This document shows positions 8,440 to 23,525 of a DNA stretch of 64,000 nt, piece by piece. Origin of the DNA: Actinomycetes bacterium (GTDB taxonomy: Bacteria > Actinomycetota > Actinomycetes > Nanopelagicales > Nanopelagicaceae); NCBI GenBank assembly GCA_025363635.1, contig JANYDL010000053.1, positions 1 through 64,000 of the forward strand, in the 5' to 3' direction. How positions within the stretch are numbered: position 1 is the stretch's first letter; the number at the start of each line of letters is the position of its first letter. Under the pieces are notes generated by a model. That model saw only the letters and a list, made by a program, of their open reading frames with translations. It had not been told where the DNA came from and did no database searches. A program made the translations under genes and the position numbers.

Positions 8440-8445
8440 GACTTG

Positions 8446-9366
8446 ATGGACTTCCAAACCGAAGCAAGATCGTTTTTGGATTATTTACGCGTAGAAAGAG
8501 GACTCGCTGAAAATTCCATCGTGGCTTATCAACGCGATCTAAAACGCTTTGGTGGATTTCTGGAAGAGCAGAATATTTCTCTGAGTGATGTACTTGCGAC
8601 ACATATTCTTCAATTTCAAAGTGTTTTACGTGGTTCTCATCTTGCTGAAGCCTCTATAAGCCGAAGCGTTTCGGCGCTACGAGCCTTTTTCAACTATTTG
8701 GGGCGCGAGAAGAATTTTCGGGATCCAATGAATGAGATCGAACAATCTCGACAGACCCGCCGATTGCCCAAGGCACTTACGGTAAGCGAAGTTATTTCTC
8801 TTATTGAAGCTTTCTCTGGCGGCGGTGACGTAATTAGATTGAGAGACCGAGCAATATTGGAATTACTGTACGGTACCGGCGCTCGTGTGAGCGAATTAGT
8901 TGATCTAGATCTTGTGGATTTTTTGAAAGTAGAGACCACAGAGAATGCGGTAGACACTATCAAATTGCGCGGAAAAGGAGGCAAAGAAAGGCTTGTGCCT
9001 CTGGGCACTTTTGCGAGCGCTGCAGTCCAAGAGTATTTAGTAAGACTTCGACCATCTTTAGTATCAAAATCTAGCCGACCAAGCAATGCTCTTTTCCTTA
9101 ACCAGAGAGGAGGCAGACTCACCCGACAGTCCGCTTGGCATTTTGTACTAGAGGCCGCTAATAAAGTTGGGCTTGAAGGGAAAGTTTCACCTCATGTCTT
9201 TAGACATTCGTACGCAACGCATTTGCTAGACGGAGGAGCAGATATTCGTGTGGTGCAAGAATTGCTTGGCCATGCGTCAGTGACTACAACTCAAATTTAT
9301 ACATTGATAACGATTGACAAGATACGCGAGAGTTATAGCAGCGCACATCCTCGGGCTAGAGGTTAA
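8446..9366 (+). CDS. xerD: Tyrosine recombinase XerD
   Basis: A 306-residue tyrosine recombinase with the usual N-terminal SAM-like DNA-binding domain (FLDYLRVERGLAENSIVAYQ) and catalytic residues in order: Arg in GTGARVSELVDLDL, Lys in LRGKGGKERLVPLG, His-x-x-Arg in HVFRHSYATHLL, His in LLGHASVTTTQIYT and its final Tyr. It resolves chromosome dimers at dif. Synteny (after pyrG, before parA and scpA) marks it as the housekeeping XerD and not a phage integrase. ATG 8446 follows the ald stop by 6 bases; an in-frame TTG at 8443 is also possible. Confidence 0.93.
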   Translation: MDFQTEARSFLDYLRVERGLAENSIVAYQRDLKRFGGFLEEQNISLSDVLATHILQFQSVLRGSHLAEASISRSVSALRAFFNYLGREKNFRDPMNEIEQSRQTRRLPKALTVSEVISLIEAFSGGGDVIRLRDRAILELLYGTGARVSELVDLDLVDFLKVETTENAVDTIKLRGKGGKERLVPLGTFASAAVQEYLVRLRPSLVSKSSRPSNALFLNQRGGRLTRQSAWHFVLEAANKVGLEGKVSPHVFRHSYATHLLDGGADIRVVQELLGHASVTTTQIYTLITIDKIRESYSSAHPRARG

Positions 9367-9382
9367 ACGAGAAGATATTTTT

Positions 9383-9802
9383 CTATTGACCTCGAAGCCG
9401 CCTTGCAAGGATGCTTTGTTCACCTTTAGCTTCCAAATCGGCAATGAGAACTGCAATTGATTCGCGGACGATTCGACCTCGATCTGCTGCTAATCCGAGA
9501 TCTCCTCTAAGCAAAAGTCGGGCCTGATCGAGATCGAATAGTTCTTCGGGTGAAAGATAAACAGTAATTTTCTCCTCGTGCCTTTCTCGCCCAGATGGTG
9601 ACCGATCCACTGCTACCGCGCGACGTCGAGAGGTTGTTCGAACGCCCTTTCTTCCAGATGAGACAGGAGCAATCGGGGTCATCGGCACAGTCTGCGTAGG
9701 CGTTACATTTAACTCGACAGGCGTGTCTCGCACAGCGCTCAATGAGGGCGACGTAGGACGAAAGAGTTCATCAGCTCCAGGCAAACTCGCTCTGCGGCTC
9801 AT
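9383..9802 (-). CDS. Ribbon-helix-helix-type protein partnered with ParA
   Basis: A 139-residue protein. Residues 1 to about 70 are Pro-, Ser-, Thr- and Arg-rich and probably disordered. From about residue 75 there is a strand-helix-helix pattern typical of ribbon-helix-helix DNA-binding proteins: KITVYLSPEELFDLDQARLL and then DRGRIVRESIAVLIADLEA. The start ATG overlaps the parA stop by 4 bases, so the two are translationally coupled. In plasmid systems small RHH proteins act as centromere-binding partners of ParA ATPases; a similar role here is an inference. The gene converges with xerD, 16 bases away. Confidence 0.65.
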   Translation of the reverse strand: MSRRASLPGADELFRPTSPSLSAVRDTPVELNVTPTQTVPMTPIAPVSSGRKGVRTTSRRRAVAVDRSPSGRERHEEKITVYLSPEELFDLDQARLLLRGDLGLAADRGRIVRESIAVLIADLEAKGEQSILARRLRGQ

Positions 9803-10683
9803 CGTGCACCTCCGATTGCTATCAATTCGCGAGCGAGGCGTCGATAAGACGCAGCCCCACCGGAGCTACCCGCGTATGTCGTGATGGGTTCGCCAGCGAC
9901 AGTTGTCTCAGGGAAGCGAACGGTTTGCGCTATCACAGTTTCAAAAACTTTATCTGGAAAGGCCTCAAGAATTCTTTCTAGAACTTCTCGGCTATGCAGG
10001 GTTTTCTTGTCGTACATTGTCGCCAAAATCCCGACAAGTTTGAGAGTGGGATTCAAACTCACTCGCACACGTTCCAAGTTCTCTTGCAACTGTGCGAAGC
10101 CTCGAAGTGCAAAGAACTCGCACTGTAGAGGAACAATTACACCGTCAGCAGCCGTCAGCGCGTTGAGGGTGAGAAGACCCAACGTTGGCTGGCAGTCGAT
10201 CAGGATAACGTCGTAATAATCGCGCACGGATGCAAGTCTTCTCTTCAAAAAATATTCTCTCGCCATTTCATTGACAAGTGTTACTTCAGCACCAGCGAGT
10301 TCCTTATTGGCTGGGAGAAGATCCATACCAGGAATAGAAGTTTTCAGAATCACTTTTTCAATATCTGAGTGAGCATCCATCAGAATTTGATAGACAGTCT
10401 CTTCTTGTTTGAGATCATGCGCACTGACTCCTAGACCCACCGAGAGAGCACCTTGGGGATCAAAATCTACGAGAAGAACTTTCCGACCCAACTCGGCCAA
10501 ACTTGCACCCAGATTAATTGTCGTCGTAGTTTTACCGACGCCGCCCTTTTGGTTTACGATAGCGATGATCGCCGCGTCCCCATGATCCTTAACTGGCTTG
10601 GGTACCGGCCAGCTCTTGGGAGTTTTCTTGAGTAGGGTCGATGTGGTAGCCACATCATCATCAAATGTCGATTTAACGCTCAA
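9799..10683 (-). CDS. parA: ParA-family ATPase
   Basis: A 294-residue Walker-type ATPase of the ParA/Soj family. It has the deviant Walker A KGGVGKTTTTINLG (about residues 50-63), VLLVDFDPQGALSVGLG (A' motif) and VILIDCQPTLGLLTLNAL (Walker B). ParA proteins use ATP-dependent DNA binding to move cargo or chromosome regions. No parB neighbour is present; the partner gene is the downstream RHH protein. The likely start is TTG 10683, preceded on the minus strand by AGAGAGG at 8 bases. It is divergent from scpA, an arrangement conserved in Actinobacteria (Rv1708-Rv1710 region). Confidence 0.93.
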   Translation of the reverse strand: MSVKSTFDDDVATTSTLLKKTPKSWPVPKPVKDHGDAAIIAIVNQKGGVGKTTTTINLGASLAELGRKVLLVDFDPQGALSVGLGVSAHDLKQEETVYQILMDAHSDIEKVILKTSIPGMDLLPANKELAGAEVTLVNEMAREYFLKRRLASVRDYYDVILIDCQPTLGLLTLNALTAADGVIVPLQCEFFALRGFAQLQENLERVRVSLNPTLKLVGILATMYDKKTLHSREVLERILEAFPDKVFETVIAQTVRFPETTVAGEPITTYAGSSGGAASYRRLARELIAIGGAR

Positions 10684-10754
10684 TCGAGAAACCTCTCTGC
10701 CGCTTTATGGTCCGACTCTACGCATGGAAAATGGCAACAGCAAGTGGAGCCTCC

Positions 10755-11657
10755 ATGCAAGATTGTTTTGAAAAAGTGAAGTACGGTTCGCAAATGGAAG
10801 TTAGCGCGAGCGATGTAGATCAAGAGATCGCTTCTGGTTTTGACGTCCACCTAGATAATTTTGAAGGACCATTCGACCTGCTCCTGCAACTCATTTCACG
10901 TCACCGTATGGATATAACGGAAGTGGCTTTGAGTGAAGTTACTGACGAATTTATCTCCTTCATCAGAGCATTAGAACTTTCAGGGCAGGGATGGCAGCTG
11001 GATCAGGCCACGGAATTCCTCGTGGTGGCAGCCACCCTTCTGGACCTAAAAGCGGCTCGCCTCCTTCCCAGCGGTGAAGTTGAGGATGAAGCCGATCTTG
11101 CTCTTCTAGAAGCGCGAGATCTCCTCTTTGCGCGATTGTTGCAATATCGCGCATTTAAAGAGATTGCCGCTACTTTTAACGATCGGATTGCTCTCCAAGA
11201 TAAGATTTTCCCTCGGTTAACAGCCCTGGATCCAGCTCTCGCCGCGTTGCTCCCTGAGGTACTTATTGGGGTAGGTGCTCAACGTTTCGGTGCCATTGCG
11301 GAAAGGGTTTTAGCTCCGCGCGTTACCCCGTCCGTGGCCCTAGAGCACCTTCATTTACCCCTTGTAAGCGTGGCTGAGGAGTCACGGTGGGTAGTCCAGG
11401 CCTTGAGAAAAGGTCGAACGATGAGTTTTCGTCATTTGGTCGCCGAGGCGGAGAGCACATTGGTGGTCGTTGCACGTTTTTTGGCACTCTTAGACCTCTA
11501 CCGGCTGGGGGCCTTGCGCTTCGATCAAATGGCAGCGCTGGGTGAGTTGCAGATTAGTTGGACTGGTCCCGATTCTGGTGTCATCGAGGCTGGAGACGAG
11601 TTTGATATCGAGGTTCCAGATCTACTGAGTGAGACAAAGGAAGGTACAAATGTCTGA
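10755..11657 (+). CDS. scpA: Segregation and condensation protein A
   Basis: A kleisin of about 300 residues that bridges the SMC heads in the bacterial condensin complex. Family features are FDVHLDNFEGPFDLLLQLIS near the start, RMDITEVALSEVTDEFISFI, then FLVVAATLLDLKAARLLPSG and a C-terminal winged-helix region. I chose ATG 10755 because GGAG (10746-10749) lies 5 bases upstream; in-frame starts at 10707, 10731 and 10794 are possible because the first residues are not conserved. It overlaps scpB by 8 bases. Confidence 0.92.
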   Translation: MQDCFEKVKYGSQMEVSASDVDQEIASGFDVHLDNFEGPFDLLLQLISRHRMDITEVALSEVTDEFISFIRALELSGQGWQLDQATEFLVVAATLLDLKAARLLPSGEVEDEADLALLEARDLLFARLLQYRAFKEIAATFNDRIALQDKIFPRLTALDPALAALLPEVLIGVGAQRFGAIAERVLAPRVTPSVALEHLHLPLVSVAEESRWVVQALRKGRTMSFRHLVAEAESTLVVVARFLALLDLYRLGALRFDQMAALGELQISWTGPDSGVIEAGDEFDIEVPDLLSETKEGTNV

Positions 11658-12201
11658 ACTTGATCTTGAAGGTTCAATAGAAGCGATCTTGATGGTGGTT
11701 GATGAGCCCGTTAGTGAGATCATCCTTGCTCAGGTATTAGAAAGACCCGTGGATGAAGTCGTACACGCCCTGGCGGGGATGACGAAAGGGTACGAAGATC
11801 GTGGATTCTCCCTACTCAAAGTAAATGAGGGATGGAGGTTTTATAGTCGCCCCGAATACGCAAGCGTCGTCGAGAAATTTGTGCTTGACGGTCAGCAATC
11901 CCGCCTTACTCAGGCTGCCCTTGAAACTCTTGCCGTCATCGCTTATCGCCAACCCGTATCTCGGGCTCGAGTCTCTGCGATACGAGGCGTCAATGTAGAG
12001 GCGGTCATGAAAACTTTGGTTTCGCGCGGCCTTGTTGAGGAATTTGGAACTGAGCATGAGACCGGGGCAATTTTGTATCGCACCACGAGTTACTTTTTAG
12101 AGCGGCTCGGTCTAAATTCCATTGGAGATCTGCCCGCTTTAGCACCTTACCTTCCCGATCTAGATCGACTAGATGAAGTCTTGGGGGCGCTGACTGATTA
12201 A
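11650..12201 (+). CDS. scpB: Segregation and condensation protein B
   Basis: A 183-residue protein with two winged-helix domains. It binds ScpA and completes the SMC-ScpAB complex. Recognisable segments are LEGSIEAILMVVDEPVSEII at the N-terminus, LTQAALETLAVIAYRQPVSR and AIRGVNVEAVMKTLVSRGLV. ATG 11650 is preceded by AAAGGAAGG (11637-11645) inside scpA, and the two frames overlap by 8 bases. Confidence 0.95.
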   Translation: MSELDLEGSIEAILMVVDEPVSEIILAQVLERPVDEVVHALAGMTKGYEDRGFSLLKVNEGWRFYSRPEYASVVEKFVLDGQQSRLTQAALETLAVIAYRQPVSRARVSAIRGVNVEAVMKTLVSRGLVEEFGTEHETGAILYRTTSYFLERLGLNSIGDLPALAPYLPDLDRLDEVLGALTD

Positions 12202-12276
12202 TTCCGGGCCCTAGAGCTCGCTGAGATTTCTACAGTAGACTTATACCTTCGCTCTTCCTGTGAAGGATTGGACCTT

Positions 12277-12990
12277 ATGGCACTCATTCGACTAAATAAA
12301 ATCATTGCAGATGCGGGTATCACTAGCCGTAGGGGTGCTGATGAACTTATCTTTGAAGGTCGAGTCACCGTGGACGGGGATGTTGTCCGTGAAATGGGAA
12401 GTAAGTTCGATCCCAATATGTCTATAGTTATGGTTGATGGTGAGATAATTACTATCAGTTTGACTAAGAATTACTTAGCACTTCATAAACCAAGAGGTGT
12501 AGTGTCCACCATGTACGACCCTGAGGGTCGGCCCTCTCTTTCGGATTTCATTTCTCTTCGAACTGAGCGTCTCTTTCACGTAGGCAGACTTGATAAGGAG
12601 AGCGAAGGTCTGATCTTGCTCACCAATGATGGGGATATGACTTTCAGGGCAACGCACCCTTCTTACGGTTTAGAAAAAACTTATCTCATCGAGTATGCCG
12701 GGAAATTGCCACGCGGAGCCGAAGATTCTTTGAGGAAGGGCATTGAGTTGGAAGATGGGCTCGGCCGTGTTCTGGATTTTAAAGCTCTTTCGCCTACCTG
12801 GATAGAAGTCACGATCCACGAAGGTCGATATCACATCATTCGTCGTTTAATGGAAGCAGTGGGTGTTGAGGTGCTACGTCTGATCAGAACGCGTTTCGGA
12901 CCCATTTTGCTAGGCGATATTTTGGAAGGGCGATGGAGGGATCTCAATGAAGTTGAGTTGATAAATCTCCGTAAGGCTTTAAGTCTTTAA
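12277..12990 (+). CDS. rluB: Ribosomal large subunit pseudouridine synthase B family
   Basis: A 237-residue RsuA/RluB-family pseudouridine synthase that modifies 23S rRNA (family position 2605 in E. coli). The N-terminal S4 domain begins IRLNKIIADAGITSRRGADE, and the catalytic domain contains GRLDKESEGLILLTNDGD with the nucleophilic Asp. ATG 12277 follows GAAGGA (12262-12267) at 9 bases. The scpA-scpB-rluB order is conserved in Actinobacteria. The gene is followed by an AT-rich gap. Confidence 0.94.
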   Translation: MALIRLNKIIADAGITSRRGADELIFEGRVTVDGDVVREMGSKFDPNMSIVMVDGEIITISLTKNYLALHKPRGVVSTMYDPEGRPSLSDFISLRTERLFHVGRLDKESEGLILLTNDGDMTFRATHPSYGLEKTYLIEYAGKLPRGAEDSLRKGIELEDGLGRVLDFKALSPTWIEVTIHEGRYHIIRRLMEAVGVEVLRLIRTRFGPILLGDILEGRWRDLNEVELINLRKALSL

Positions 12991-13271
12991 CGCTTTATCG
13001 TTTTTAAAGAAAAAAAGATAATATTTATTTATAACTTTATCGATTTTATCTATTGTTATTTTTATAGTTTTATCGACATTGAAGTTTGCAAATGTGTGGC
13101 AAATGAAGCGCTTTTTGTTAATTTATTGACTTTTGTCAATGGACGGGAATCGGGTCGTTCATTGTTATTAGCGTTTTATGGATGAACATGTACAACTATT
13201 ATTTAATAAAACCTTTTATTAATAAAACGCTATTACGCACCTCAGTTGTCCCGAAGCGGTAATCTATTGCC
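12991..13271. other. AT-rich intergenic region with repeated TTTTAT motifs and inverted repeats
   Basis: This 281-base gap holds no plausible gene. My count gives about 30% G+C for 12991-13260 and 11 G/C out of 80 for 13001-13080, far below the flanking genes. TTTATCG occurs at 12994, 13036 and 13069 (spacings 42 and 33). TAGCGTTTTAT (13169-13179) has a perfect inverted copy at 13222-13232. Between them lies the palindrome AATAAAA-CC-TTTTATT (13205-13220). ATTGAC-TTTT-GTCAAT (13125-13140) is another perfect hairpin, and GCAAATG is repeated at 13087 and 13099. It also contains the promoter region of aroH. Its function is unknown; a binding-site array or nucleoid-protein target is an inference. 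Confidence 0.75.
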
Positions 13272-13634
13272 ATGACGGTGAAAGCGATTCGCGGTGCAAT
13301 TCAGGTAGATTTGAACACAGCTGAGCATATTCATTCTGGAGTGAAAGAATTATTGGGCGCCATTTTAACTATAAACCAACTCGTCCCTGAGGACGTCATC
13401 TCCGTGATCCTCACTTCGACCCCAGATTTGGTTGCGGATTTTCCTGCCGTCGGTGCTCGAGGTATGGGTTTTGAGTCCGTCCCTCTCTTATGTGCCACTG
13501 AAATTGACGTACCAGGAGCCTTGCCTCGAGTTATCCGGGTCATGCTTCATTGCAACACTGAGTTGAGTTCGAAAGAGGTGAGCCACATCTACCTCAAGGG
13601 TGCTGCGGCACTTCGTCGCGATTTAGCTCAATGA
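13272..13634 (+). CDS. aroH: Chorismate mutase, AroH type
   Basis: A 120-residue protein of the trimeric AroH class, as in Bacillus, converting chorismate to prephenate. Typical segments are KAIRGAIQVDLNTAEHIHSG with the active-site Arg near the start, DVISVILTSTPDLVADFPAV, MGFESVPLLCATEIDVPGAL and IRVMLHCNT near the end. It overlaps tyrA by 4 bases (ATGA), so successive steps of tyrosine synthesis are coupled. It is the first gene after the AT-rich region, so its promoter must lie there. Confidence 0.93.
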   Translation: MTVKAIRGAIQVDLNTAEHIHSGVKELLGAILTINQLVPEDVISVILTSTPDLVADFPAVGARGMGFESVPLLCATEIDVPGALPRVIRVMLHCNTELSSKEVSHIYLKGAAALRRDLAQ

Positions 13635-14693: not shown

Positions 14694-16652
14694 ATGGGCA
14701 TAGTTGTAGCAATTGACGGCCCAAGTGGAGCAGGCAAATCCAGTACTTCCAGGGCGATAGCGATGCGCGCTGGCTGGGACTATTTGGATACAGGGGCTCT
14801 CTATCGCGGAATTACTTGGTTATCCCTTCGCGAAAATATCGCTGATGCCTCAGCTTTGATTGATTTGCTCAAGAAGAACTCCTTGAGGTTTGTGACCGAT
14901 CCCATGGATCCGCGTTTGTATTGCGGAGAGGTTGATATCACCGAGCAGATTCGCGGCTTGGAGGTCACCGAGAGGGTGAGCGGGATAAGTGCCGATCCCG
15001 AGATTCGTCGATATTTACTGGGTGCTCAATTGAAGATTATCGAACGAGCACTGAAGGGGATCGTAGTCGAAGGTCGTGATATCGGCACGGTGGTCGCACC
15101 AGATGCCGCCTTGAAAATATTTTTGACAGCGGATTTAGAGGCCAGAGCGATACGCCGCGAGGCCGAACTATCCGGTATCGGTCTGGATGCGGTCGGGTCT
15201 TCCTTGGCCAAGCGTGATGAGATTGATTCAACCAGGCAAGCCTCACCTTTGGCCCTGGCAACGGATGCGATCGTGATTGATTCCACCGGGTTAACTTTAG
15301 AAGAGGTAACTGCCCGTATCTGGGAAGTTGCTAAAGAACGCAGGTTGCTTGGATTGCCGATCGTCGCACTTCTCGGTCGACCCAATGTAGGTAAATCCAC
15401 GCTCATCAACCGTTTCCTTGGTCGGCGCGAAGCGATAGTGGAAGACACTCCTGGTGTAACGCGGGATCGAGTGACATATGAATGTGAGTGGAATGGCCGT
15501 GATTTTATGGTCATGGATACGGGTGGATGGGAATCAAAACCCGATGGAATTTCTGTCGGAGTCAGCGCAATTGCGGAGTTGGCGATGCAGGAAGCCGATG
15601 TTCTCGCCTTCGTAATTGATGCTCAAGTTGGGGCGCTGGATGAGGATGATGTCCTCGTCCAACATTTGCGCAAGATGAAGAAGCCCATTCTTCTCATTGC
15701 CAATAAAGTTGATGGTGAACGTGAAGAATCAGATGCACACGCTCTCTGGAACCTCGGATTAGGAGAACCGTATTTTGTTTCAGCCCTGCATGGTCGCGGC
15801 GCCGGTGATCTACTCGATCGCATCGTCCTGGTTCTGCCAGAGGTAGGTGCAGCTCAGAGCCAGGATGGTTATCGAAAAGTGGCCCTCATCGGGCGACCGA
15901 ATGTGGGCAAATCAAGTTTGCTCAATACATTGGCGGGCAATGAGCGTTCCCTCGTCGATGACGTTGCAGGCACAACGCGCGATCCGGTGGATGAACTCAT
16001 CGAAGTAGGTGGATCGATATGGAGATTTATCGACACTGCGGGAATTCGTAAGAGGGCCAACCAATCAAGTGGCACTGACTATTACGCAACATTGCGCACG
16101 CAGGTAGCCCTTGAGCGAGCAGAAGTTGCGGTGGTGGTTTTGGACGGTTCACAACCCATCAGCGAGCAAGACCTACGCATTATTACGATGGTGGAAGAAG
16201 CAGGAAAAGCTCTCATCATTGTGATGAACAAGTGGGATTTGGTGGATGAAGATCGCCAAATCTCCCTAGACCGAGAGATTGACCGCCATTTAGATCAGGT
16301 CGAATGGGCCCAACGTGTAAATCTTGCGGCGAAGACTGGCTGGCATCGGGACCGTCTCGCTCCGGCGCTGCGAACCGCCCTCACCAGTTGGGAGAAACGA
16401 ATCCCCACTAGTCGCCTGAATTCCTTCCTAGGCACCCTTATCGCGGCTACACCTCCACCGGTGCGTGGAGGCAAGCAACCGAAGATTCTCTACGCAACTC
16501 AGGCCGGGATTGCGCCGCCGCGTTTTGTCATTTTCACGACAGGTTTTCTTGAGAGTTCGTATCGGCGCTTCATCGAAAGGCGCTTGCGCGAGGAATTTGG
16601 ATTCCCTGGAACTCCCGTGCAGATTTCGGTGCGGGTTCGGGAGCGAGACTAG
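14694..16652 (+). CDS. cmk-der: Fused cytidylate kinase and ribosome-assembly GTPase Der
   Basis: One 652-residue frame joins two normally separate proteins. Residues 1 to about 218 are cytidylate kinase: [32 protein letters not shown] and [10 protein letters not shown]. The rest is Der/EngA with two GTPase domains, the first G1 motif [16 protein letters not shown] near residue 227 and the second [16 protein letters not shown] near residue 399, plus NKVD and NKWD motifs and the C-terminal KH-like domain. The fusion occurs in several actinobacterial groups; Mycobacterium keeps the genes separate but adjacent. The linker is only a few residues (around [10 protein letters not shown]). Confidence 0.96.
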
Positions 16653-23433: not shown

Positions 23434-23490
23434 AGGGAACCTTCGGGGGGTACTTACGGGGAAGCGGTTTGCACCTCTGCTCGGTTTACT

Positions 23491-23525
23491 TTACATAATG
23501 TAACTTATCGGCGTTTTAAACGCCG
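23491..23525. repeat. Two adjacent perfect palindromes between converging gcvP and lnt
   Basis: TTACAT-A-ATGTAA (23491-23503) and CGGCGTTT-T-AAACGCCG (23509-23525) lie five bases apart in the 118-base gap between two converging genes. The second could fold as a hairpin, but neither strand shows a long T run, so a terminator role is uncertain. Confidence 0.6.

Follow-up and report, generated by a model that had tools for sequence, protein, structure and literature searches.

A conserved site array near dif, between rluB and aroH, as a possible centromere-like platform beside a PldP-type ParA

The gap between rluB and aroH

What is the short AT-rich gap between rluB and aroH for, and which protein would bind it? 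The gap and its two flanking genes occupy the following positions of the window, by which we mean the whole stretch of DNA that was analysed (64,000 nucleotides of a draft actinobacterial genome).

12268–12990, forward strand: rluB, RNA pseudouridine synthase
12991–13271, no strand assigned: rluB–aroH gap with the conserved site array, 281 bp, 29.9% G+C
13272–13634, forward strand: aroH, chorismate mutase (Pfam CM_1, 3.4e-42)

A sequence-only reading of this locus had reported about 30% G+C for the gap as a whole and 11 G or C bases among the 80 positions 13001–13080 (14%), and our recount agrees. No other 80-mer in the 64 kb window is as poor in G+C as the one starting at 12994. The AT extreme had also been regarded as a feature to look for in close relatives, where it is not kept: their rluB–aroH gaps contain 27–40% G+C, and the value of 14% is peculiar to the window's species. 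The heptamer TTTATCG occurs at 12994, 13036 and 13069, as had been noted, with spacings of 42 and 33 bp; when the gap was dinucleotide-shuffled 2000 times, three or more copies never appeared (mean, 0.10). About ten further copies are present elsewhere in the window, unclustered. An inverted pair that had been described is likewise present, and TAGCGTTTTAT occurs in the window solely at 13169 and, inverted, at 13222, but the perfect palindrome said to lie between the two arms is 14 bp rather than 16 bp in length (13214–13227) and overlaps the second arm. An Rfam search of the gap for structured RNA gave no match, and a search for promoter and terminator consensus sequences gave nothing above chance.

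Conservation and arrangement of the sites

Corresponding gaps were extracted from 26 loci of the same family, a group of freshwater actinobacteria, using aroH and rluB as anchors. They are 260–292 bp long, though the adjoining aroH proteins are 53–81% identical to that of the window. Alignment and motif modelling of these gaps gave the consensus CGATTTATCGAYATT (14.4 bits), with 129 sites in the 26 gaps compared with 3.9 in shuffles. Because the modelling was seeded with the motif, it is the return of the sites at the same positions that counts as independent evidence. In the window's genus, the sites are usually located at +4, +46, +79, and +131/132 after the rluB stop. Relatives have a further site near +200–226, which is often inverted, and the gap in the family holds about four sites plus this one. 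The spacings group at 33–34, 41–42, and 52–53 bp. Some sites flip their orientation yet hold their position, as expected from the near-palindromic core TATCGATA; the palindromic core TRTCGAYA lies within a signal of roughly 12–15 bp. The spacings had been described as about four and three helical turns, but exact 10.5-bp phasing was not demonstrated, because circular statistics gave similar R values (0.36–0.49) for any period from 9.5 to 11. A lack of conserved repeats in close relatives had been named as grounds for abandoning the sequence-only reading; in the alignment, both the repeats and their spacing are conserved.

The gap of the relative L002 is better preserved than that of the window. 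Judged against its relatives, the window copy retains three sites intact and has three more in a decayed state.

12994–13005, forward strand: site 1, TTTATCGTTTTT, 14.2 bits; at the same place (+4) in most genus members
13036–13047, forward strand: site 2, TTTATCGATTTT, 14.5 bits; at the same place (+46) in many relatives
13069–13080, forward strand: site 3, TTTATCGACATT, 15.6 bits; at the same place (+79) in relatives
13122–13133, forward strand: decayed site 4, TTTATTGACTTT; relatives have TTTATCGAY at +131/132
13175–13186, forward strand: putative decayed extra site, TTTATGGATGAA, assigned by similarity to the consensus; the left arm of the inverted repeat is 13169–13179
13212–13229, reverse strand: putative decayed inverted site, CGTTTTATTAATAAAAGG; it includes the 14-bp palindrome, and the right arm of the inverted repeat is 13222–13232

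In comparison with the relatives, TTTATTGAC at 13122 (site 4) resembles a decayed copy of the array site. The two arms of the inverted repeat also look like two decayed sites in opposite orientation, and the inverted repeat, which had been presented as a feature of its own, appears to be a by-product of this decay. Many relatives also keep a short block, ACGCT(T/C)A, which is located between sites 3 and 4 (about 13095–13115 in the window) and lies outside the site motif. About 20 bp before aroH, a GGGGAGTANCCTT block (13230–13271 and relatives) is conserved in many genus members and resembles a ribosome-binding or leader feature.

A single cluster located close to dif

In the complete genome G035 (1.34 Mb), which belongs to the same family, at least two sites of at least 12 bits within 300 bp occur only at the array, and sites are at background beyond approximately 10 kb from it. 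Nearly all other site matches in this genome fall inside coding sequence, and no other cluster precedes any gene. When the 26 family loci are divided into 500-bp bins, the one following rluB contains 108 sites (5 with a reversed-matrix control) and forms the single dominant peak over 27 kb. The two main other positions at which sites recur, the start of parA and a Der motif, are both coding; in the window, the array-like site at 16026 lies in coding sequence (FIDTAGIR of Der). The earlier concern that the motifs might occur at random throughout the genome is thus answered for full-length sites, which are not randomly scattered. A search with pairs of the short core was uninformative, as its matches were mostly coding.

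The GC skew of G035 was too weak for placing the origin and terminus, and the positions of dnaA (located by a family search) and dif were used instead. In 12 complete genomes of the family, the array is located at 0.466–0.517 of the chromosome from dnaA. The dif site was first recognised in G035 and then matched exactly in the window.

23488–23515, reverse strand: dif, AACGCCGATAAGTTACATTATGTAAAGT, present once in the genome, immediately downstream of a gene with a gcvP-like end

This 28-mer is similar to actinobacterial dif, lies at the terminus, and is single-copy in nearly all genomes searched; a dif suggested for Frankia, CACGCCGATAATGCACATTATGTCAAGT, resembles it (PMC3025954). It marks the replication terminus, and its distance from the array, about 10 kb in the window, is 9.7–12.3 kb in the 12 complete family genomes. 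In representatives of three further families (G062, G060, and G046), dif and the array share a contig and are about 20–27 kb apart, and in G129 the distance is about 125 kb. The terminus location of the array alone is no proof of a terminus function, because the xerD-parA-scpAB-rluB gene cluster itself sits there.

An RHH-like gene behind parA

The genes upstream of rluB are arranged as follows.

8443–9366, forward strand: xerD, tyrosine recombinase, about 4 kb from the array
9383–9802, reverse strand: gene of a putative RHH-like protein, 139 aa, directly behind parA and conserved in the family; strand-helix-helix in AF2 models
9799–10683, reverse strand: parA, pldP-like Walker ATPase (Pfam AAA_31, 6.7e-61; CbiA, 2.8e-25)
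10707–11657, forward strand: scpA (Pfam SMC_ScpA, 7.1e-46)
11629–12201, forward strand: scpB (Pfam SMC_ScpB, 2.6e-49)

The array lies behind rluB, 2.3 kb from the start of parA, and the RHH-like gene is about 3.2 kb upstream of it. This gene overlaps the end of parA in the window, runs in the same direction, and follows parA in the relatives. In its product, the N-terminus varies and the C-terminal domain (GRERHEEKITVYLSPEEL...DRGRIVRES) is extremely conserved; no sequence match was found in Pfam, NCBIfam, or PDB. In the AF2 models, a predicted strand-like stretch is followed by two helices, which is the order expected of a ribbon-helix-helix monomer. The centromere-binding ParB of pCXC100 (3no7) recurred in both Foldseek fold searches, with E values (2.7–5.2) that are not significant. 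Based on the sequence pattern and the AF2 secondary structure, we infer that the protein is RHH-like.

From its gene neighbourhood, the adjoining ATPase is taken to be of the PldP/ParA2 type. In the cited passages, PldP is an orphan ParA without a ParB partner that forms foci at the division site (PMC3989709), with minicells in the mutant (PMC3989709, PMC4255298), and the mycobacterial homologue Rv1708 is stated to bind ScpA and ParB (PMC10482377). The sole ParB_N protein of the genome is encoded near dnaA, and the PldP-like ATPase is therefore without a second ParB.

Directly before parA (10660–10720, reverse strand), a GAGAGGTTTCTCG stretch is almost invariant in the family; it may be the promoter or start region of parA or an operator, and this assignment is confounded by coding. 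At the 5′ end of parA, TCGACA is constant in the family. We rejected it as an autoregulatory site, because it is coding sequence (S-T) and also occurs in a genome lacking the RHH-like gene.

Co-occurrence of the array and the RHH-like gene outside the family

Sixty loci across the class and additional loci were scored with the family-trained matrix, which was not trained outside the family. In the 38 non-family gaps from genomes with the RHH-like gene, 35 sites were found compared with 0.28 expected; 16 of the 38 gaps have at least one site, and 10 have at least two. The array-bearing non-family genomes span 59–75% G+C, mostly 65–75%. The same matrix found no site in any of the 25 gaps from genomes without the gene, and these gaps are short (median 80 bp), which confounds gap length with gene content. 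The other 22 of the 38 gene-bearing genomes, some of them large and Streptomyces-like, have no site in the rluB–aroH gap.

On a tree of ScpA, ScpB, RluB, and ParA, which is midpoint-rooted and has deep branches, about 11 changes are counted for the RHH-like gene and about 8 for the array. No tip has sites without also having the gene. Contrasts include L191/L198, L157/L203, and L189–L190/L160. Cellulosimicrobium and Oerskovia keep parA and lack both the RHH-like gene and the array. The dependence looks one-way: the array implies the gene, but the gene does not imply the array.

Loci that have the gene and no array in the rluB–aroH gap include L155, L182, L183, L196, and others, some of them large and Streptomyces-like. 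In two genomes with the gene (L154:1207–1489 and L150:4900–5412), the AT-richest stretch and weak site-like sequences are found between xerD and parA rather than between rluB and aroH, and the array may have moved to this interval.

Possible functions of the array

The repeats noted in the sequence-only reading hold up, and the case for them is stronger than was first described. It is well supported that the gap is a conserved multi-site platform, probably linked to replication or segregation. The sequence-only reading had proposed such a platform for a regulator, a nucleoid protein, or a replication or segregation element, and this part of it agrees with the conserved array, its spacing and singularity, its location about 10 kb from dif, and its presence only with the RHH-like gene; the binder is a candidate.

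The main alternative is an operator or promoter region, through which a transcription factor (the RHH-like protein or another regulator) would control aroH-tyrA-cmk/der. The array is directly upstream of aroH, where the aroH promoter would be, and the last forward site is about 140–155 bp from the aroH start in many family members; however, the sites keep their distance from the rluB stop just as strictly. RHH proteins commonly act as repressors, but four to six copies over 220 bp are unusual for an operator, neither a promoter nor a terminator rose above chance, and G035 has no such cluster before another gene. In addition, the array tracks a segregation-type gene, whereas aroH is also found in genomes without the array; G022, G027, and G029, which have no aroH match, are non-deciding here, as the gap is missing or the contig ends in it. 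We consider transcriptional control unlikely, while giving it more weight than any other rival.

A structural nucleoid-protein or SMC-related architectural element for loading, unloading, or a domain boundary, recognised by a protein other than the RHH-like one behind parA, would suit the AT-richness, the spacing, the adjoining scpAB, and the terminus position. This is improbable in our judgement, because a specific consensus of about 14 bits recurs at 65–75% G+C, beyond mere AT-richness, and the array is restricted to genomes with the RHH-like gene. Still less probable is an accessory or replication-termination site for XerCD/FtsK, or a Tus-like fork trap: although dif is 10 kb and xerD about 4 kb from the array, the array consists of several spaced copies in a single location, dif is complete in itself and stands apart from the array by 10 kb, and xerD is retained in genomes without the array. 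The site has 8 of 9 bases in common with the DnaA box (TTATCGACA versus TTATCCACA) and AT-rich DNA beside it, which raises the idea of DnaA titration or a secondary origin. We give this very little credence, since the sixth base (G, 94%) and the T/C at the eighth differ consistently, and the array is opposite dnaA on the chromosome. A DnaA-box cluster was rejected as a candidate on the dnaA loci of seven genomes, which carry TTRTCCACA and no TTRTCGAYA. A functionless AT-rich spacer with chance repeats, as the partly decayed window copy and its extreme AT content might suggest, is barely credible, because sites, spacing, and location are conserved across genera and families.

Our preferred reading, to which we assign about an even chance, is that the array is a terminus-proximal set of centromere- or anchor-like sites bound by an RHH-like partner of PldP. 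The gap would act in cis as a site of nucleoprotein assembly close to the replication terminus, with four to six spaced site copies, and the RHH-like protein behind parA, as the most likely binder, would load onto the array and link it to PldP, the ParA homologue. The terminus/dif region would in this way be placed or retained at the division site as XerCD and the ScpAB condensin complete their work on the chromosome, and the array system would be the terminus counterpart of the oriC-located ParABS. Binding by the RHH-like protein, the action of PldP through it, and the cellular role are what we infer here; conservation, spacing, singularity, position, and gene restriction are observed. More tentatively, and at somewhat less than an even chance, actinobacteria with this cassette may have a second, terminus-located chromosomal centromere, in which an RHH protein on an array 10–27 kb from dif is driven or read by PldP.

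According to the cited passages, all actinobacteria have PldP/ParA2, which influences where the division site is placed and has no ParB of its own (PMC3989709, PMC4255298). If the preferred reading is true, this 'orphan' ParA would gain its missing partner and a DNA target, and chromosome termination would be linked to division-site placement. With the conserved partner gene and the terminus array, PldP would have a defined target, and its role could be tested. A ParA-linked site array at the terminus would, to our knowledge, be new; the open-licence papers searched describe none. Origin-proximal ParABS systems are common.

Comparison with known systems

The M. tuberculosis gene order at Rv1708 is presumably the same xerD-scpAB-rluB neighbourhood. 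By description, PldP/ParA2 (C. glutamicum Cg1610, M. tuberculosis Rv1708, and S. coelicolor SCO1772) is the same ParA homologue in this neighbourhood, and the cited passages call it an orphan without ParB and mention neither an RHH-like partner nor a DNA site (PMC3989709, PMC4255298). The array shares its terminus neighbourhood with dif/XerCD, but it has an unrelated motif and is 10 kb from dif. As in the chromosomal ParABS at oriC, ParA-driven positioning through a site cluster is proposed here; the array differs from that system in its motif, in lacking a ParB_N domain protein, and in its location at the terminus rather than the origin, and a normal ParB gene is present near dnaA.

MatP of enterobacteria is a terminus-associated RHH protein with dedicated DNA sites (matS). 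The many matS sites are dispersed over the Ter macrodomain and differ in sequence from the array motif, whereas here one compact array lies beside a ParA gene, with the background level in G035 reached within about 10 kb.

The system also resembles the type Ib partition systems of plasmids (ParF-ParG of TP228, delta-omega of pSM19035, and ParA-ParB of pCXC100), in which a Walker ParA is followed by a small RHH-type gene and iterated short sites are located nearby; here, four to six copies stand at conserved spacing. Unlike type Ib, the present system is chromosomal and at the replication terminus, its RHH fold and binding are putative, and the array is between rluB and aroH instead of at the parA promoter, the parA start having a single coding-confounded site. 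Because the sites are placed differently and the RHH fold is putative, we do not file the system as a type Ib member; by analogy, it would work like a ParA–RHH–centromere module.
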